Virus record (IMG/VR): IMGVR_UViG_3300006931_000261
Span: 1-23,366 of that record
Origin: a virus
DNA: 23,366 nt
Reading direction: 5' to 3' (one strand)
Shown here in pieces: positions 3,639-12,893 of the stretch (within the stretch, counting starts at the first letter, position 1; every line of letters begins with the position of its first letter). The position numbers and the translations under genes are program-made. A model generated the notes under the pieces. It ran no database searches, was not told the origin of the DNA, and worked only from the letters and a program-made list of their open reading frames with translations.

Positions 3639-5624
3639 ATGGCCGAGCTCAAGTACGGACCGGGGAATGCCTTCAGGGCTGGTGTTCAGCTGCACGATCA
3701 GCAGCTCGAACGCATCGCCCGGATGGCGATGACGCCGCGGCAACTCGAGCTCAACCGCTGTTGGGCGTTCTACTTCACCGAGCAATACGCTGCGCGCTCG
3801 ACGTCGTGGGACGGCCGGCCGGTGATGTCGGACATCGAGCGCGACATGATCGCGCGCAACACGGTGCTGCCGCCGGGGTTCTACGATCCAGGCGGCAAGC
3901 TCGACGACATGCCGCTGAGCATGCGCAAGCCGACGGCGCCGTACCACCTGGTGCGCGTCGTCGTGAACCGGTTCACCGGTCTGCTGTTCTCGGCGAAGAT
4001 GCACCCGACGATCCGCATCGCCGGCATGCCTCAGCTGCAGGAGTGGGTCGAGGCGCTGATCAAGTCGGCGCGCCTGTGGATCCGCCTCGCGTACGCGCGC
4101 ACGTTCGGCGGCGCGATGGGCGCGGTGATGGTCACGTTCCGGTTCCGCAACGGCAAGCCGGTGATCGAGGTCCACGATCCGCGCTGGTGCACGCCGCACA
4201 TCGTCGACCGCTCCACGGGTGAAGTCGACGCGCTCGAGATCCGGTACATGTATCCGGTCGAGGAGCGTGACGACAAAGGGATCCTGCGCCAGAACCTGTA
4301 CTGGTACCGCCGCACGATCGACGCCACGCAGGACGTGCTTTTCAAGCCGGCACCGGTCGGCGACGGCGACGAACCGACGTGGGAAGTGCAGGAAGTCGTC
4401 GCGCACAACTTCGGCGAGTTCCCCGGCGTGTGGATCCGCAACTCGCAGACCGAGGAAATCGACGGCGAGCCGGACTGCCACGGCGAATACGACACGCAGG
4501 AAGCGATCGATCGGCTGCTCTCGCAGGCCGACCAGGGCGCCGTCGAGAATTGCGATCCGACGCTGCTGCTCGTGTCGGACGAGCTCAAGGTTACCGAGCT
4601 CAAGAAAGGATCGCGCAACGCGATCAAGGTCGAGAAAGGCGGCAGCGGCGAGTACCTTGAAATGAGCGGCGCCGGCGTCGAGACCGCCCTCAAGGTGATC
4701 GAGGTCCACCGCCGCAACTTCCTCGAAGTCGTGCAGTGCATTCTCGACAACGAAGCCACCGACGGCACGATGACGGCGACCGAGATCGAGCGCCGATATT
4801 CGTCGATGCACGAGCGCGGCGATTTGTTCCGCGAGCAGTACGGCGAGCTCGGGATCAAGCCGCTGCTCGGCAAGATCATCCGCGCCGTGGTCGCGATGCG
4901 GACGAACGGACCGATCGATCCGGCGACGAACCTGCGCCTCGTGCCGCAGGTGTCGCTACCGCCTGGCCTCGACGAGAAAACCGGGACGCCAGTCGAGCGC
5001 GAGGTGCCGCCTGATCTCGCCAGCTTCACCGACGACATGATCGAGCTCACGTGGCCGGAGTGGATCAAGCGCGGACCGACGGACGCGAACGCAGCCGCGC
5101 AAGCCGTCGCTACGGCGGTGTCCGGCAAGGCGCTCGACCTCGAGAGCGCGATGCAGTACATCGCGCCGTACTTCAACATCGACGATCCGGCCGCAGCGAT
5201 CGCGCGCCTGCAGACCGAGAGCGGGCTGCTCGATCAGCAGCTGATGGGTCAGCTGCAGCAGGCGCAGCAGCCGACGGCAGCGCCTCAGCCGGAACCGACG
5301 GCCGCCGAGAAGGCGATGGCGAGCATGGGCCCGCAGGCCGCCGAGAAGGCCCAGGACGCCGCGCTCAACGGTGCGCAGGTGACCGCCGCCGTCGCGATCC
5401 TGACCGGCGTGGCCGACAAGTCGCTGGCGCCCGAGGCCGCGAAGCTGATGCTCGTGCAGTTCTTCCAGATGCCGATCGAGGTTGCGTCCGCGATCATTGA
5501 TGCCCAGGTCGCGAAGGCAGTGCCGCCGGCCGCGCCCGCACCGTTCGGGGCGCCGCCGGGCAGTACGCCACCGGCCGGTCCGCCGAGCTCGCCACCACCG
5601 CCACCGCACATGCCGCCCCGGTGA
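3639..5624 (+). CDS. Portal protein, 661 aa
   Basis: Forms the dodecameric ring at the capsid vertex through which DNA enters and leaves; it docks the terminase and the neck. The gene follows the large terminase directly. The protein has the expected look: an N-terminal mixed region, a central part with WIRLAYARTFGGAMGAVMVTF and DPRWCTPHIVD, then a long helical stem with TMTATEIERRYSSMHERGDLF near residues 375-395. The portal core ends around residue 520. The last 130 or so residues are a Q/A/P-rich extension ending in a proline-rich tail, unusually long for a portal. The ATG at 3639 lacks a strong ribosome-binding site. Confidence 0.85.
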   Translation: MAELKYGPGNAFRAGVQLHDQQLERIARMAMTPRQLELNRCWAFYFTEQYAARSTSWDGRPVMSDIERDMIARNTVLPPGFYDPGGKLDDMPLSMRKPTAPYHLVRVVVNRFTGLLFSAKMHPTIRIAGMPQLQEWVEALIKSARLWIRLAYARTFGGAMGAVMVTFRFRNGKPVIEVHDPRWCTPHIVDRSTGEVDALEIRYMYPVEERDDKGILRQNLYWYRRTIDATQDVLFKPAPVGDGDEPTWEVQEVVAHNFGEFPGVWIRNSQTEEIDGEPDCHGEYDTQEAIDRLLSQADQGAVENCDPTLLLVSDELKVTELKKGSRNAIKVEKGGSGEYLEMSGAGVETALKVIEVHRRNFLEVVQCILDNEATDGTMTATEIERRYSSMHERGDLFREQYGELGIKPLLGKIIRAVVAMRTNGPIDPATNLRLVPQVSLPPGLDEKTGTPVEREVPPDLASFTDDMIELTWPEWIKRGPTDANAAAQAVATAVSGKALDLESAMQYIAPYFNIDDPAAAIARLQTESGLLDQQLMGQLQQAQQPTAAPQPEPTAAEKAMASMGPQAAEKAQDAALNGAQVTAAVAILTGVADKSLAPEAAKLMLVQFFQMPIEVASAIIDAQVAKAVPPAAPAPFGAPPGSTPPAGPPSSPPPPPHMPPR

Positions 5625-5627
5625 TCC

Positions 5628-5813
5628 ATGGGCGAGCGCGTGATCCAGACCTATCGCGTGCCGGTCATGTCCGGGCGCTCGGCCGTGCTCGAGGTCGAGG
5701 TCGTCGAGGACGAACCGCCGAAGCGCTGGCGGTTGAAGCTCGCGCTGCTGCTGATCCGCTGGGCCGGCAGACTCGCACGCGTGCGCGTCCGCGTTGAAAA
5801 CCAGATCAGCTGA
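5628..5813 (+). CDS. Small basic hypothetical protein, 61 aa
   Basis: A short frame starting three bases after the portal stop and ending at the convergent junction with the methyltransferase, with 8 nt of overlap at the 3' ends. The first half is beta-like with an acidic stretch (LEVEVVEDEPP). The second half is a strongly amphipathic, Arg-rich helix (LKLALLLIRWAGRLARVRVRV) that might be membrane-associated. Tight spacing to the portal and non-random composition support a real gene. No family is recognised. It could be a small virion or lysis-related protein, but nothing proves this. Confidence 0.5.
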   Translation: MGERVIQTYRVPVMSGRSAVLEVEVVEDEPPKRWRLKLALLLIRWAGRLARVRVRVENQIS

Positions 5814-6714
5814 TCGCGTTCGCGACGGCGTGCACGACGCCCTTTGCGACGAGTGGAGGCACGGCGTTGCCGAGTCCCTTGATGCAATCCTCGCGGGTCG
5901 CATCGGCTGGCCACGCGTAGCTGTCGCGGAAACTCATGGCGCGCGCGTGCTCGCGGATCGACAGCGACCGATAGCGATCACCGTCGACAATCACCCACTG
6001 ATCCTTCGTGGTGATCGTACGGATCGGTTGGTCGAGCGGGACGCCGGGGTGACCGGTGACGTGCTGCGAGAGAAAGCGCCGGCCCCAGTTCGCGCGAGCT
6101 TTCGCGAACCGCGCGCGAGCATTCGGCGACGCCATCGTGGTCGGGCGCCATGTACCCGCGTCGAGCTCGATGCACGGTCCGATCGGTGGCTCGACGGTGA
6201 CCGCCGGCAGCTCGATCGCCGTCGGCTTGCGCGTCGCGAGGATGATCAGGCGATGCCGGCGCTGCGGGACACCGAAGGCGGTGGCGTGCGCGTCGTGCTC
6301 GGTCACGTGGTAGCCGAGTCGAACGAGCGCCTCACGCCACACCGGAAACAGCAGCCACCGACGGAACGCCGGGACGTTCTCGATCACGATCGCGGCCGGG
6401 GTGGTCGCCTCGGCGCAGTCGATCACGGCCCACGCGGTCGCCCGATCGGCGTCATGCTTGACCGTGCGGATCGGCTGCGATGCCGTCGAATGCCCCTGAC
6501 ACGCGGGCGATGCGAGCAGCAGATCGAACCGCGGCAGCCGAGTGAAGTCAGCCTGCCGAAGATCCTGGCAGACGTGCGCAGTGCGCGGGTGGTTGCGGGC
6601 GTGCGCCTCGACGGCAAGCGGCCAGTGGTTCGCCGCCCACACGACGTCGACGCCAGCGAGCTCGGCGCCCTCGGTGAAACCGCCCCAACCTGCGAACAGG
6701 TTGACGGCCTTCAC
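5806..6714 (-). CDS. DNA (cytosine-5-)-methyltransferase, 302 aa
   Basis: Transfers a methyl group from S-adenosylmethionine to carbon 5 of cytosine in DNA. The C5-methyltransferase motifs appear in order: motif I FAGWGGFTEG (7-16), motif IV SPACQGHS with catalytic C72, motif VI IENV (111-114), motif VIII QRRHR (151-155), motif IX RTITT (232-236) and motif X GNAVPPLVA (282-290). The residue before the catalytic Cys is Ala instead of the usual Pro. The region between motifs VIII and IX is short, so the target-recognition domain is compact. The GTG at 6714 overlaps the TGA of the upstream gene (GTGA); longer frames upstream run through that gene. No restriction enzyme is adjacent, so self-protection or a base-modification role is more likely than a restriction pair. 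Confidence 0.93.
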   Translation of the reverse strand: MKAVNLFAGWGGFTEGAELAGVDVVWAANHWPLAVEAHARNHPRTAHVCQDLRQADFTRLPRFDLLLASPACQGHSTASQPIRTVKHDADRATAWAVIDCAEATTPAAIVIENVPAFRRWLLFPVWREALVRLGYHVTEHDAHATAFGVPQRRHRLIILATRKPTAIELPAVTVEPPIGPCIELDAGTWRPTTMASPNARARFAKARANWGRRFLSQHVTGHPGVPLDQPIRTITTKDQWVIVDGDRYRSLSIREHARAMSFRDSYAWPADATREDCIKGLGNAVPPLVAKGVVHAVANAIS

Positions 6715-7316
6715 GCTTCCACCTCGTCGACACCGTCGCCGATCGCGAGAGCGTCGCGCGAGATCTGCGTTGCCGCAGCCGCGTCGAGGTCGCCGTTCGC
6801 GATCCGTTCGAGCGCAGCCTCGAAGGCCGGCATACGCGACAGACGCGCCATCAGCTGCGGAACGTCGCCGCCCTTCCCCTCGGCGCGCACACGCATGCCG
6901 CCGGCATCGAGCGACCGGCCGCCGGCAGCGAGGCGCCAGCGACCATCGGAACCGCCGCCGCTGTCCGGGACGCCGCGACGGGTCACCCAGATCGATCCGC
7001 AGTTGTCGCACTTGTCCCAGCCGCGCAGCTTGAGGCCGCCGCACGTGGTGCCCACGATCGTGTCGTCGAACCGGAGCGGGCCGCCGCAGTCGCCGCAGCG
7101 GACGAGTCGACCGTCCGCGTCGCGCGCGTCAGCATAGAAGCCGCAGCCCGGGCCACCGTTGACCGAGCAGATCCAGCGGTCGGCATCCTGCAGCGTCGGA
7201 TCGATCGGCTCGCCATTGAGGCGCGCCACGAGCACGCCCGTGCACTGTGACGAGTCGATGCCGCAACCACACGGCGGTGCCGCGGCGCGCGCGGGTTTCT
7301 TCGTTTTCTTGGCCAT
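6711..7316 (-). CDS. Cysteine-rich zinc-ribbon-like protein, 201 aa
   Basis: No family is recognised. After a basic start (MAKKTKKPAR) the first half carries ten cysteines (C16, C18, C25, C50, C58, C74, C77, C92, C103, C106), including CxC and two CxxC pairs (CGDC, CDNC). Two zinc ribbons or an iron-sulfur site are the likely readings. A Gly-rich linker leads to a helical C-terminus (about 150-201). The gene starts two bases after the Mom-like stop (TGA-CC-ATG) and its own stop overlaps the methyltransferase start, so all three should be made together. By context it could be a DNA-binding or redox partner in modification; Mu com, which controls mom translation, is also a small zinc-binding protein, but the order and size differ here. 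Confidence 0.7.
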   Translation of the reverse strand: MAKKTKKPARAAAPPCGCGIDSSQCTGVLVARLNGEPIDPTLQDADRWICSVNGGPGCGFYADARDADGRLVRCGDCGGPLRFDDTIVGTTCGGLKLRGWDKCDNCGSIWVTRRGVPDSGGGSDGRWRLAAGGRSLDAGGMRVRAEGKGGDVPQLMARLSRMPAFEAALERIANGDLDAAAATQISRDALAIGDGVDEVEA

Positions 7317-7318
7317 GG

Positions 7319-8161
7319 TCAGGCGTTCTCCTTGGGGTAGCTCAGACGGGTAACAGGCAGCACCTCGCGCCGACGGCGGCGATCGAGGCACCAGAGATAG
7401 CGGTGGTTGCCGCGGTGACGCATCGACTGCGTTAGCTCGGCGCGCCAGCGCTTGAGCCACGCGAGCGCGTCTTCGTCGGGATCGAGCGGCGTCGCGCCCC
7501 AGCGTTCGAGCTGATCGATCGCGCTGTCGTCGCCGCGCTCGCCGCGCACGAGCTTGCCGCTGGTGCGGTTGCTGAGCACCGTGCCGTCCGGGAAGATCCG
7601 CAGCGTCGAGTCGTTCGTCTTGCCGACGTACTGCGCGTTCAGCGCCTGGTAGACGATGCCGAGGTGGCCACGGAACACGAGGCCGCGTGGCGTGATCCGC
7701 GGCTGCGGATCGGCGCAGCTCTCGACCGCGACCACCGGGCGGCGCGGCGTGCCATCCTTGCGGAACGGTCGGTACAGCTTCGGCATCGCGAGGAGCTCGA
7801 AGCAACGGGCGACGAACCAGCTCTCGCCGTTGCCGGGCACGCGATCGCGCAGGACCAGACGGCCGAGCGTGACGGCTTCCTTCATCGTGAGATCGGTGTG
7901 GCCCCAGACCTTGTTGTGCGCGTTCACGCTCGCGCCGGGACCGAACAGAGCGACGCCCTCAAGCTCGCCGCGGTAGTACAGGCCGAACCGGTGCGCGGTC
8001 GAGCTCGCCTCCTTGGCGTAGTGATGCTCGCGCACGAACGCGCGCGCCTCGTCGTCGGACGCGATCGGTGCCACCTCGTAGTCCGAGGTCTTGATCAGCT
8101 CGCCGGCCGGGCGGCGTTTCTCGCGGCCACCCTCCCAACGCTGGCAGGTTTCGACGATCAC
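7319..8161 (-). CDS. Mom-like DNA-modification protein (GNAT-fold), 280 aa
   Basis: Resembles Mu Mom and related phage acyltransferase-fold enzymes that modify DNA bases to block restriction. Visible segments are EARAFVREHHYAKE (38-51) with a His-Tyr pair, FGLYYRGELEGVALFG (59-74), LGRLVLRD (99-106), an NGES segment (111-114), and RGHLGIVYQALN with QYVG (164-180). These match the family layout from memory; no alignment was run. The frame is open well upstream, but the GTG at 8161 follows an AGGAGG ribosome-binding site by seven bases and overlaps the preceding TGA. The C-terminal 60 residues are basic (RHRGNHRYLWCLDRRRRR), which could bind DNA. Product chemistry and target base are unknown. 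Confidence 0.75.
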   Translation of the reverse strand: MIVETCQRWEGGREKRRPAGELIKTSDYEVAPIASDDEARAFVREHHYAKEASSTAHRFGLYYRGELEGVALFGPGASVNAHNKVWGHTDLTMKEAVTLGRLVLRDRVPGNGESWFVARCFELLAMPKLYRPFRKDGTPRRPVVAVESCADPQPRITPRGLVFRGHLGIVYQALNAQYVGKTNDSTLRIFPDGTVLSNRTSGKLVRGERGDDSAIDQLERWGATPLDPDEDALAWLKRWRAELTQSMRHRGNHRYLWCLDRRRRREVLPVTRLSYPKENA

Positions 8162-8607
8162 GAGCACACCTCCTGGCGGGCCATCGTCTCTCGCGCCGGG
8201 CGAGCGCGCAGCGTGCGGAAGTGGTTGCCGACCGAGCGCGCCGCACGGGCGAGCGCCGCGCGATGGATCTCGCTGCGCGTGCGCTCGCGACGCGGGCGGC
8301 GCACAGCGTTGCGAAACTTGAGGCCCAGCTGGTTCATCGCGTCGAGAAAGCAATTCGCGTAGAGCACGCGGATCTTGCCGAGCTTGAGGCCGCCGGTGCG
8401 GACCACGACGCGGATTTCGCCGCGGCCGTAGTTCGCTTCCCAGTCCATGCAGACGATCGCCTCGCCGTTGTTCCAGGTCCACACCTGGGTGGCGGTGAAG
8501 CCGTATTGCTTCTGCCACTCGGCCTTCAGGCCATCGGTAACGGCCGACATATCGCAGCCGCGCGAGTAGACCGCCAGGACCTTGCCGCCGTTCGTGTTCG
8601 CTTCCAT
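8158..8607 (-). CDS. Hypothetical protein leading the modification operon, 149 aa
   Basis: Not recognised. The N-terminal two thirds look like a compact alpha/beta domain (KVLAVYSRG, ATQVWTWNNGEAIVCMDWE, GEIRVVVRTG, KIRVLYANCFLDAMNQLG). The last 50 residues are a very Arg-rich helical tail that could contact nucleic acid. In-frame ATGs lie upstream at 8661, 8637 and 8631, but they fall within or before the promoter. The ATG at 8607, seven bases after the -10 element, should be the first codon of a leaderless mRNA. The stop overlaps the Mom-like start. Being first in the operon, it may regulate or assist the modification enzymes. Confidence 0.65.
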   Translation of the reverse strand: MEANTNGGKVLAVYSRGCDMSAVTDGLKAEWQKQYGFTATQVWTWNNGEAIVCMDWEANYGRGEIRVVVRTGGLKLGKIRVLYANCFLDAMNQLGLKFRNAVRRPRRERTRSEIHRAALARAARSVGNHFRTLRARPARETMARQEVCS

Positions 8608-8644
8608 GCTTCTAACAATACGCACGAGCATGCGCATCGTCAAG
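8596..8644. repeat. Left arm of inverted repeat: promoter plus first codons
   Basis: Read on the minus strand, this arm holds CTTGACG, a 17-nt spacer, TATTGT and the codons ATGGAAGCGAAC. It matches the plus-strand arm at 8745-8792 at about 41 of 49 positions by hand alignment. The arms are separated by 100 nt. Confidence 0.7.
8608..8643 (-). promoter_or_regulatory. Leaderless promoter of the modification operon
   Basis: On the minus strand the -35 is TTGACG (8643-8638), the spacer is exactly 17 nt and the -10 is TATTGT (8620-8615). Transcription should begin near 8608, one base before the ATG at 8607, leaving no room for a ribosome-binding site. The spacer carries the palindrome ATGCGCAT next to the -35, a possible operator. 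Confidence 0.7.
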
Positions 8645-8744: not shown

Positions 8745-8792
8745 CTTGACGATGCGCACGGTCGTGCGTATCTTTAGGGCATGGAAACGAAC
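8745..8792. repeat. Right arm of inverted repeat: promoter plus first codons
   Basis: Plus-strand arm beginning CTTGACG and ending in the codons ATGGAAACGAAC, mirroring 8596-8644. The copies differ mainly in the middle of the spacer, the last bases of the -10 and one base of length before the ATG. The two downstream proteins share only their first residues (MEAN and METN). Confidence 0.7.
8746..8780 (+). promoter_or_regulatory. Leaderless promoter of the early plus-strand genes
   Basis: The -35 TTGACG (8746-8751), a 17-nt spacer and the -10 TATCTT (8769-8774) place the transcription start on the A of the ATG at 8781. The spacer contains CGCACG-GT-CGTGCG, a perfect 6+6 inverted repeat around two bases, which is a good operator candidate. 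The promoter is divergent from the one at 8608-8643. Confidence 0.75.
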
Positions 8793-10294: not shown

Positions 10295-10648
10295 ATGGGC
10301 ACGACGATTCACATCCAGGGCGCGATCGATCGCCAGGTCCCCGATCCGGCGCTGACCAGCGACCCGACGCGGACCTTCCTTGGCATGATCACGGCCAGCT
10401 GGAACTACGACGGCCCCCGCTCGGCGATGGCAGCGGTGATCAAGGTCGCGACGGGTGGCGGTATGGTGACGGGCTGGGGCCCGCACGTGCTGTGCCTGCG
10501 CTGGGTCGGCGATCCGCCGATGGTCGAGGTCGCGCAGGCGGTCTACGACGCGCTCCGCGATCGGGGCCCAACGCCAGGTCCGATCTCGATGGCAGTCGTG
10601 ACCACGGCGCAGGGCCCAGAGCTCGCGAGCTACCGCCGCGCGGGCTGA
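10295..10648 (+). CDS. Hypothetical protein under its own leaderless promoter, 117 aa
   Basis: Not recognised. The ATG at 10295 lies directly behind the promoter at 10258-10294. The protein is a small alpha/beta type with a Gly-rich centre (VIKVATGGGMVTGWGPHVLCLRW) and a helix EVAQAVYDALRDRG. There is no helix-turn-helix that I can point to, although a gene under such an operator-rich promoter could be autoregulatory. The following gene starts two bases after its stop (TGA-CC-ATG), so it leads an operon with the metalloprotease and the ribbon-helix-helix proteins. Confidence 0.6.
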   Translation: MGTTIHIQGAIDRQVPDPALTSDPTRTFLGMITASWNYDGPRSAMAAVIKVATGGGMVTGWGPHVLCLRWVGDPPMVEVAQAVYDALRDRGPTPGPISMAVVTTAQGPELASYRRAG

Positions 10649-10650
10649 CC

Positions 10651-11202
10651 ATGACGCAGCAGATCGAGTACCCGGAGCCGTGGCTCCGCGCTTGGGCCAT
10701 CGTGCTCGAGAACGCGCCCGGCGACACGCCACCGCCACGGGTCGACGTTGTGCACGTGCGCCGCACTAACCGCGTGGGAGCGTACGGCAAGTACGATCCG
10801 CGCCGGCATGCGGTCGTGGTCTACGCCGACGAAGATCGTGCCGAAGCGCTCGGCACGCTGATCCATGAGCTCGCGCACGCGTGGGCGCCGGACGAGAAAG
10901 GGCACCACGGCCCAGCCTGGCAGCGGACGTTCTGCGACCTTTTCGCGTGGCTCACCGATTTCGAGATCGCGCTCGACAAGCTGCCGGAGAAAGCGCGCAA
11001 CCTCGTCGACGCCGTGAAGGCATCGCAGCGCGTTAGCAACCGCCTCTGCTCGTGCATCCTCGACGTGCTCGTCGTGAACAAACTGCGCGAGCTCGACCCG
11101 ATGATCTGGCATCGCCTCAACCCCGACGGAAGTCCCCGCGCGGTCGAGATGAAGCTGGGAAGTAAACGCTACGCCGTAGCGCTAGGAGAACCGACGCCAT
11201 GA
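10651..11202 (+). CDS. SprT-like zinc metalloprotease, 183 aa
   Basis: The segment TLIHELAHAW has the HExxH motif (H72, E73, H76), followed nine residues later by HHGPAW (H85, H86). An HG..W/F element after HExxH is typical of SprT/Spartan-like domains, which bind zinc and in eukaryotes digest DNA-protein crosslinks. The domain occupies about residues 35-100; the C-terminal part is helical with a CSC pair and no clear zinc ribbon. Phages often carry small SprT-like proteins of unknown substrate. The start ATG follows the previous stop by two bases, and its own stop overlaps the next ATG. Confidence 0.7.
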   Translation: MTQQIEYPEPWLRAWAIVLENAPGDTPPPRVDVVHVRRTNRVGAYGKYDPRRHAVVVYADEDRAEALGTLIHELAHAWAPDEKGHHGPAWQRTFCDLFAWLTDFEIALDKLPEKARNLVDAVKASQRVSNRLCSCILDVLVVNKLRELDPMIWHRLNPDGSPRAVEMKLGSKRYAVALGEPTP

Positions 11203-11483
11203 CCCGCAAGAAACTCGACGAGAACGAAAAGACACGCATCCAGGTGGTTGCGTCTCGCAAGCAGGCCGAGATCCTCGACGACGCCGCGAAAGCAGCCGGC
11301 GCGTCCGATCGCTCGGTGTGGATCCTCGCGCACGCGCTCAAGGCCGCGCACGCGCAGGACGCGAACAGCGCCCCGCTCGTGATCTCCGGCGAGCTCGCCG
11401 ACAAGCTGCGCAGCGAAGCCGCGCGCCAGGGCGTCAACGCCGAGCAGGTGCTTCAGCAATTCCTCCTGACGGCGGGCGCGTAA
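11199..11483 (+). CDS. Ribbon-helix-helix-like protein with two repeats, 94 aa
   Basis: Two similar halves each read as strand-helix-helix. The first is TRIQVVASRKQAEILDDAAKAAG followed by a second helix. The second is LVISGELADKLRSEAARQG followed by VNAEQVLQQFLL. This fits the Arc/CopG-type ribbon-helix-helix fold, where a pair of strands reads the DNA major groove; two copies in one chain could act as a single-chain dimer. The assignment is from pattern only. The ATGA overlap with the metalloprotease stop fixes the start. Together with the next gene it may form a small repressor set acting on the operator-like motifs at 8620-8640 and 10258-10293. Confidence 0.55.
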   Translation: MTRKKLDENEKTRIQVVASRKQAEILDDAAKAAGASDRSVWILAHALKAAHAQDANSAPLVISGELADKLRSEAARQGVNAEQVLQQFLLTAGA

Positions 11484-11485
11484 CC

Positions 11486-11683
11486 ATGGCGCTCAAACAA
11501 AGCCGCCGATCAGTCTCGTTCAACCGCGGGCTGTACGATCGCGCGAAGGAGTTTTGTCACGCGCGCGGCGTCCCGCTGGCGCAGTTTGCGGAGAAGGCTG
11601 TCCAGCGAGCTCTCGAGGACGCCGAGCGCGAAGAGTCGAACAACCAGCTCGGTCAGCCCGTGGCGCCGTCCGCGACCGGCTGA
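11486..11683 (+). CDS. Ribbon-helix-helix protein, 65 aa
   Basis: A compact basic strand-helix-helix sequence: strand RRSVSFN, helix RGLYDRAKEFCHARG, turn, and helix PLAQFAEKAVQRALED, followed by a polar tail. This closely follows Arc/CopG-like regulators, in which the N-terminal strand contacts DNA. The ATG lies two bases after the upstream stop (TAA-CC-ATG), in translational coupling with the double ribbon-helix-helix gene. The frame is open upstream to 11318 but that part runs through the previous gene. It is probably a DNA-binding regulator of phage transcription; the target is unknown. Confidence 0.7.
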   Translation: MALKQSRRSVSFNRGLYDRAKEFCHARGVPLAQFAEKAVQRALEDAEREESNNQLGQPVAPSATG

Positions 11684-11709
11684 TAGCGTGGGGCATGGAG
11701 GACATCACC

Positions 11710-12324
11710 ATGCTCAAGCCATCGATGATCAGGCCGCGCAGTTCGTTCGCATCCGTGCTCGGCATTGTGTTCGCGGTTCTTTGCTTCGGCGCCACCGTCG
11801 GAGTCGGGACGTATCGCCTGCTGCAGCCGTACGCTGAACAGCACGACCACCCGGCCGCGACCGCGACGCGCAGCGCAGGCGCGAACAACACGATCAACGC
11901 CAGTGGCAGCTCGAGGAACTACGCGATCTACACGCCGGCCGCGCCGTCCGACTACTACGCGCCGCGCCTGATCGATGCAAACGGGCAGGCGTGCTTCGCG
12001 CACATCGACGGCGGGCACGGTCTCACCGGCGACATCGGCTTGAGCTCGTACGCTGGCGCGTGCCGCCTCGTGTTCGGATGGCAGGCGCCCGAGCAATATC
12101 AGTGCGTGTTCGATGTCGGCATCGTCGACCCCGCAACGATCGCGAGCGTCGACCGGACCGGGTTCTATTTCTCGTTCCAGCCGTCGAACGCGTTGCGCCA
12201 CATCCGATACAGCTGCACCCAGGTCGAGCCGGTCCATCTGAACACCTCGCCGTTTCTGGTCAACGGCAACACGACGCTCGGCGACGCGGTCACGACGAGC
12301 GGCATCTACGACGTCAGTCGCTGA
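11710..12324 (+). CDS. Membrane-anchored extracytoplasmic protein, 204 aa
   Basis: The ATG at 11710 is preceded by GGAGGA (11698-11703) at good spacing, which decides it over the ATG at 11695. The basic N-terminus (MLKPSMIRPR) and one hydrophobic segment at about 13-36 (FASVLGIVFAVLCFGATVGVG) predict an N-in/C-out anchor. The outer domain starts with a Thr/Asn/Ser-rich linker and carries four cysteines with aromatic strands, consistent with a disulfide-bonded fold outside the cytoplasm. Last gene before the structural block resumes. Superinfection exclusion is one possibility and a virion or lysis-associated role another; nothing decides. Confidence 0.6.
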   Translation: MLKPSMIRPRSSFASVLGIVFAVLCFGATVGVGTYRLLQPYAEQHDHPAATATRSAGANNTINASGSSRNYAIYTPAAPSDYYAPRLIDANGQACFAHIDGGHGLTGDIGLSSYAGACRLVFGWQAPEQYQCVFDVGIVDPATIASVDRTGFYFSFQPSNALRHIRYSCTQVEPVHLNTSPFLVNGNTTLGDAVTTSGIYDVSR

Positions 12325-12330
12325 CCTTGT
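12325..12330 (+). promoter_or_regulatory. CCTTGT box B
   Basis: CCTTGT starts directly after a TGA stop and 32 nt before the ATG at 12363. The first 11 bases (CCTTGTGCGCT) are identical to those of the box upstream of the major capsid gene at 17601. It marks the point where late genes resume after the non-structural block. Confidence 0.45.
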
Positions 12331-12362
12331 GCGCTCTCCTCGCCGCCGCGAGGATCGAGCGC

Positions 12363-12752
12363 ATGGCCGCCGACAACCCGATCATCCACAGCAAAAAGCT
12401 TTGGGACGGTCGCACGACCGCGATGGAGCTCCACCGCAAGCTCGCGTGGAAGAATCACCCCTGCGACGGCTGCGGTGCCAAGGACGTCTCCCTGCGGGTG
12501 CAGACGTTCGTGCTGCTCTCGGACATGTCGCTGGACACTCGGCTCGCGATCGAGTTCCAGGTGTCGATCAAAAAGCTGAACCTCGCGCGCTTGGCCGGCG
12601 GGCAGGCGGTGCGCACCGGAGTGCAGCACGCGTGTCCGCGTTGCGCCCCCGCCCTCGAGCGCGCGGCAGCTCGCGGGCCGAGCTACGCGATCGTCGACTT
12701 CGACCGGGGTCCCGGCGAAGACAAGCCGGTGATCCAGGTGGTCGGCGGCTGA
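12363..12752 (+). CDS. Hypothetical protein with two Cys pairs, 129 aa
   Basis: Carries CDGCG near residue 34 and CPRC near residue 92, a spaced pair of CxxC knuckles that could together hold a zinc ion. Between them lies an alpha/beta stretch (VSLRVQTFVLLSDMSLDTRLAIEFQVSIKKLNLARL). There is no obvious enzyme motif. It is the first gene of the resumed late block, upstream of the Mu gpF-like head gene, so a capsid-assembly or nucleic-acid-binding role is possible. The ATG has no strong ribosome-binding site. Confidence 0.6.
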   Translation: MAADNPIIHSKKLWDGRTTAMELHRKLAWKNHPCDGCGAKDVSLRVQTFVLLSDMSLDTRLAIEFQVSIKKLNLARLAGGQAVRTGVQHACPRCAPALERAAARGPSYAIVDFDRGPGEDKPVIQVVGG

Positions 12753-12754
12753 TC

Positions 12755-12892
12755 GTGGCGTGGCACCACGTCGAGACCGACGAGCGCCACCGCAAGGTCT
12801 GGATCGTGTGGCGCTGCGGTCTCTGCAAGCGGCTGGCGGTCACCGAGTACGGGCCGCCGCAGAGCCTGTGCGTGTGCATGAGGAAACAGTGA
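12755..12892 (+). CDS. Mini-protein with two Cys pairs, 45 aa
   Basis: A 45-residue frame starting at a GTG two bases after the previous stop and ending one base before the next start. It contains CGLC (about 21-24) and CVC (about 39-41), enough for a single zinc ribbon, with aromatic residues WHH and WIVWR. The tight fit between neighbours and the conserved-looking cysteine pattern support a real gene despite its size. It echoes the Cys pairs of the preceding protein; the two may work together or be a split gene. Function unknown. Confidence 0.55.
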   Translation: MAWHHVETDERHRKVWIVWRCGLCKRLAVTEYGPPQSLCVCMRKQ

Positions 12893-12893
12893 C

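Follow-up and report, generated by a model that had tools for sequence, protein, structure and literature searches.

Background

Mom of phage Mu attaches a carbamoylmethyl group to N6 of adenine, and expression of the mom gene depends on Dam methylation. To our knowledge, Mom enzymes have been studied almost only in Mu. Mom proteins fused to a nuclease domain have been described in jumbo phages (PMC7824862). Our literature search combining phage, Mom and C5-cytosine methyltransferase returned no paper, although one key study of the genes around Mom lay outside the collection searched.

Here we analyzed a window of 23,366 bases, which is one entire IMG/VR record (IMGVR_UViG_3300006931_000261), and focused on a minus-strand cassette of four genes (5806-8607) in which a Mom-family enzyme is joined to a C5-cytosine DNA methyltransferase. 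Based on sequence comparisons, we consider it fairly probable that this is a separately promoted anti-restriction cassette, lying on the opposite strand, that would put two different marks on DNA.

Organization of the cassette

The cassette and its surrounding promoter-like sites comprise the following features (aa, amino acids; nt, nucleotides).

8158-8607, minus strand: 149-aa protein P0001, first gene of the cassette; open reading frame with one relative, in phage G082
7319-8161, minus strand: Mom-family DNA modification enzyme of 280 aa with a GTG start and a GTGA overlap with P0001; PF25680, phrog_1384 and predicted fold
6711-7316, minus strand: 201-aa protein with ten cysteines and a zinc-ribbon-like CxxCG...CxxCG spacing; open reading frame, no relatives found
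5806-6714, minus strand: C5-cytosine DNA methyltransferase of 302 aa; PF00145, TIGR00675 and motifs
8615-8643, minus strand: putative sigma-70 promoter of the cassette, TTGACG-17-TATTGT, ending 7 nt ahead of the first ATG
8746-8774, plus strand: divergent putative sigma-70 promoter, TTGACG-17-TATCTT, of the plus-strand gene at 8781; promoter scan

All four reading frames are open at these positions, and the raw sequence shows a GTGA overlap at each of positions 8161 and 6714, whereas the genes meeting at 7319/7316 are joined as TGA-CC-ATG, with a gap of two bases. In all four genes the G+C content is 0.83-0.89 at third and 0.49-0.59 at second codon positions, which is a coding pattern and argues that they are not chance reading frames of a sequence with 67% G+C. 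Together with the matches to curated profiles described below, these frames and overlaps bear out the initial annotation, which had proposed a Mom-like enzyme and a C5-cytosine methyltransferase in one candidate operon. The cassette appears to have its own putative promoter and runs against the direction of the structural genes. Two promoter-like sites were found in the region against 0.1 expected, and each stops 6-7 nt short of a start codon, a placing that suggests leaderless transcripts.

The two predicted modification enzymes

The 280-aa protein, previously described as Mom-like, matches PF25680 (9e-23; 81.4 bits against a cut-off of 27.1; profile positions 2-202 of 202) and phrog_1384. 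Its AlphaFold model, built from ten homologues, reached a predicted local distance difference test (pLDDT) score of 84.7. The structure search places this model within the Mom/GNAT family: the top match in the PDB is the crystal structure of Mu Mom (8bv8, E 4.5e-10), and GNAT acetyltransferases make up most of the next matches. The title of that entry describes an inactive mutant, S124A, and the entry names Mom a methylcarbamoylase; wild-type Mu Mom carries Ser at position 124. Both profile alignment and multiple alignment pair Ser114 of the window protein with Ser124 of Mu, and this position is Ser or Thr in 18 of 18 Moms, while His47-Tyr48, Arg101, Asn111, Asp151, Tyr171 and Asn175 are invariant in the aligned Moms. 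A weak partial match to a homing-endonuclease PHROG (E 0.003) was also obtained. The profile, the predicted fold and the Ser114 alignment indicate that this predicted protein is a genuine Mom.

The 302-aa protein (C5-METHYLTRANSFERASE) matches PF00145 at 2.8e-39, in agreement with its earlier identification as a C5-methyltransferase, and scores 114.6 bits against TIGR00675 (cut-off 100.65). It has the S-adenosylmethionine-binding motif I (LFAGWGG), Cys72 in motif IV (SPACQGHS), and the ENV, QRRxR and GNAV motifs, all of which are invariant or nearly so among aligned relatives. In motif IV, Ala replaces the usual Pro ahead of the catalytic Cys (SPACQ rather than PCQ). Since this substitution is invariant in nine of nine aligned sequences, it is a family trait and not a sign of damage. 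We also considered whether close relatives of this enzyme generally accompany Mom; this was ruled out, because Mom is present in only 1 of the 80 records that hold such a relative. Large C5-methyltransferase frames of 658-820 aa were found in G081, G082, G083 and G085, which are large phages with or without Mom.

Recurrence of the Mom/C5 pair

Profile scans gave at least 80 viral Mom loci; confirmed Mom loci numbered at least 462. A C5 gene (PF00145) lies within 3 kb of Mom in 13 records including the window, and on the same strand in all 13; two of these records, G119 and G120, are near-copies, leaving 12 distinct ones. The pairing therefore recurs in other phages, and the initial annotation, which a lack of any recurring neighborhood would have counted against, stands on this point. 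Distances between the two genes were measured to the profile match and are upper limits; the genes overlap by 4 bases in L139 and are separated by 2 bases in L135 and L155. Of the 23 pairs on contigs that carry both genes and are 25 kb or longer, 8 have the genes no more than 3 kb apart, compared to 1.7 expected under uniform placement of the C5 gene (P ~1e-4).

A shared pair through kinship was rejected for L007: its phage and that of L002 are not terminase kin of the window. The order in L007 is C5, a 57-aa gene and Mom, again with a GTGA overlap, and given its unrelated terminase this pair was not inherited with the same structural genes as those of the window. The C5 partners belong to several subfamilies, with 58% identity between the window and L007, 48-60% within another group and 23-37% between groups, and the C5 gene stands on either side of Mom. 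On a tree of Mom proteins, the 11 paired Moms need 11 label changes and are thus not clustered; well-supported branches force at least four of these changes, and many forks of the tree are weak. The scatter of paired Moms and the several C5 subfamilies imply that the pair was assembled, or one partner exchanged, several times. A conserved order of the four genes was not borne out: among the records compared it was seen in the window only, the 201-aa protein has no relatives in the collections searched, and the one relative of the 149-aa protein lacks Mom and C5 neighbors.

Pfam matches among 110 neighbor proteins of Mom, a tally of neighbors and not of independent events, comprised six C5, five N6/N4 and four D12 methyltransferases, three DpdA and two PAPS reductases, as well as one ArdA and one Tad4 anti-defense protein. 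The partners of Mom are thus predicted to target any of three bases: cytosine, adenine or guanine. If the enzymes worked in sequence on a single base, a single type of partner would be expected, whereas stacked independent marks set no such condition, and we therefore prefer independent marks.

Individual loci near Mom included a D12-class adenine methyltransferase gene starting at the end of a Mom gene whose product is 65% identical to that of the window (L002:10801-11784), and a PAPS-reductase-like gene immediately upstream of Mom in a Bryobacteraceae metagenome-assembled genome (L089:8860-10041). Upstream of the C5/Mom pair of L007, a 283-aa gene (L007:7826-8674) shows weak similarity to phrog_15826 (DpdA-like), and its relatives stand near Mom in L180 and L176.

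Two proposed independent marks and the alternatives

According to our preferred explanation, Mom would modify adenines at N6 by adding its group, which in Mu is carbamoylmethyl. Cytosines would be methylated by the C5 enzyme at its own target sequence. By acting independently, the two enzymes would shield the DNA from restriction enzymes reading either base. The zinc-ribbon-like 201-aa protein and the 149-aa protein would be accessory, serving regulation or DNA targeting rather than catalysis, and the cassette lies between the portal and head genes, in a stretch that in kin phages holds other modification genes or no such cassette. As noted earlier from the sequence, no restriction enzyme adjoins the cassette: its proteins show no restriction nuclease match, and the matched flanking genes are portal and other phage genes. 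Anti-restriction, the role first suggested for the cassette, is also the one we judge likeliest.

Several observations weigh against this explanation. With PACQ in place of the usual PCQ in motif IV, C5 activity of the 302-aa protein is probable, not certain. The idea of the portal-to-head interval as a site of exchange, set out below, is drawn from three phages. In the nearest Mom relatives of the window (L002, L083, L129), no C5 gene lies 3 kb or less from Mom, and enzymes of this C5 family occur commonly in phages that lack Mom. These last two points, and the unconserved four-gene order, fit the alternative that Mom and C5 are unrelated accessory genes brought together by chance or general clustering in an insertion-tolerant region. 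The uniform-placement null behind the expected 1.7 close pairs also ignores the general clustering of phage genes of the same function. However, the observed 8 of 23 close pairs, the shared strand in 13 of 13 and the repeated separate pairings of Mom with C5 speak against mere clustering, which we regard as unlikely while ranking it first among the alternatives.

Regulatory coupling, in which the adjacent methyltransferase gates the expression of a toxic mom gene as host Dam does for mom of Mu, would agree with the many phages in which a methyltransferase adjoins Mom. However, the C5 gene is in the operon of mom itself, downstream in the window and upstream in others, and would have to gate its own transcript, which makes this alternative quite improbable. 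We have a similarly low expectation that one of the marks permits the other or serves as its substrate, in which case the cassette would be a coupled system yielding a previously undescribed modification or a doubly marked site. Least probable is a coupled pathway in which Mom prefers 5-methylcytosine sites or acts on methylated cytosine to build a larger modification: the pair does recur in tight operons, with C5 ending a few bases from Mom in L135, L139 and L155, but the partners are non-orthologous, an adenine methyltransferase or DpdA can take the place of C5, the active-site residues match those of Mu Mom, an adenine enzyme, and no hydroxylase, carbamoyltransferase or glycosyltransferase was seen in the cassette. 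Nor did the cassette, in a window that is part of a phage genome, contain enzymes building on 5-methyl- or 5-hydroxymethylcytosine. Sequential hypermodification, which the initial annotation had offered beside independent marks, gained nothing from the analysis, given the varied Mom partners (C5, N6/N4, D12, DpdA) and the action of Mu Mom on adenine.

The 201-aa and 149-aa proteins

The 201-aa protein has two CxxCG knuckles at zinc-ribbon spacing among its ten cysteines, and from its sequence it looks like a zinc ribbon. Searches of Pfam, PHROG, NCBIfam and PDB gave no significant match, and no relatives were found in any collection searched (tblastn against phages, viral scans). A structure predicted from the single sequence was not usable (pLDDT 38.7). 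We considered this protein as a counterpart of Mu Com and rejected it, since no similarity to Com was detected, its gene lies downstream of mom, and it is 201 aa long. Since these phage genomes often encode small CxxC-knuckle (zinc-knuckle) proteins of various kinds close to Mom, the ten cysteines are no special clue.

For the 149-aa protein P0001, tblastn against phages and viral scans found nothing. Its single relative, 37% identical over 134 aa (1e-15), was reached through the terminase kin. It is encoded in the corresponding interval of G082, in the same orientation, with neither Mom nor a C5 enzyme alongside.

Phage context and the portal-to-head interval

PHROGs recognize terminase large subunit (TerL), portal, head-morphogenesis and major-head genes in the window, and the cassette is carried by a tailed phage, a virus of bacteria. 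A DNA-level search of the window against phages gave no match. A terminase scan identified two kin phages, G085 (87.5 kb contig, 68% identity) and G082 (92 kb contig, 64%). Given these contig sizes, the window, whose final gene continues past the right end, probably covers part of a larger phage genome, the relatives being about 90 kb in size. The cassette is bounded on both sides by genes that are syntenic in the kin phages.

3639-5813, plus strand: left boundary, portal protein (3639-5624) and conserved 61-aa gene (5628-5813); phrog_64 at 1e-5, syntenic in G082 and G085
11199-14705, plus strand: right boundary, conserved 94-aa gene (11199-11483) and head-morphogenesis gene (12894-14705); PHROGs and kin-phage comparison
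L119:9425-16768 (G082:C1), strand opposite to the structural genes: G082 cassette with QueD, a DpdA-like gene, a DUF4942 gene and the 149-aa relative

The left-boundary genes have tblastn identities of 59-60% to the kin phages. At 10348-11202 of the window there is a signal of a SprT-like metallopeptidase slightly under the Pfam cut-off.

The portal-to-head interval of G082 is about 14 kb long and holds the minus-strand cassette listed above, whose QueD matches TIGR03367 above the cut-off and whose phrog_15826 gene has relatives annotated as DpdA-like transglycosylases. No QueC was found in the kin phages, G082 included; by this test the 7-deazaguanine route encoded by G082 is incomplete, and the remaining steps would have to come from the host. 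The Mom of G082 lies outside this interval and adjoins a SNF2-type helicase; this helicase gene, directly after the Mom gene, resembles DpdE/ZorD (L083:10789-12537). In G085, no minus-strand cassette was called from the portal gene up to the 94-aa gene, and past the latter, before the head gene, there is a methyltransferase-like gene (L113:14665-15444) with several methyltransferase families slightly under the Pfam cut-offs. As a lead, the portal-to-head interval may be a swap site for DNA-modification modules, perhaps with whole pathways exchanged together with the 149-aa protein.

Comparison with known systems

The cassette is best read as a new arrangement of known enzymes whose pairing is recurrent. 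A Mom/C5 operon that recurs and was repeatedly assembled lends itself to testing whether phages combine marks on different bases to overcome several restriction systems at once. The portal-to-head interval, with a 7-deazaguanine-type cassette or none in the kin phages, offers a natural comparison of modification strategies within one phage lineage.

With com-mom of Mu, the cassette shares the Mom fold, the active-site Ser/Thr, the conserved His-Tyr, Asn, Asp and Tyr residues, a small gene for a cysteine-rich protein adjoining mom and the likely anti-restriction role. However, Com has 62 aa and is encoded upstream of mom and overlapping it, whereas the cysteine-rich gene of the window encodes 201 aa, lies downstream and has no detectable similarity to Com; the window also adds a C5-methyltransferase and the 149-aa gene. 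Solitary C5-cytosine methyltransferases of phages (PF00145; phrog_116) have the same catalytic motifs, similar size and no adjacent endonuclease, but the window enzyme differs in its PACQ motif IV and its operon pairing with Mom. The Mom systems of jumbo phages (PMC7824862) likewise use Mom for DNA marking, while the window cassette has no nuclease domain or gene. The 7-deazaguanine DpdA/QueD genes of phages (PMC6884629) resemble the cassette in role and occupy the same genomic interval in G082, together with the P0001 relative; their chemistry is different, acting on guanine rather than on adenine and cytosine, and no such genes are present in the window.
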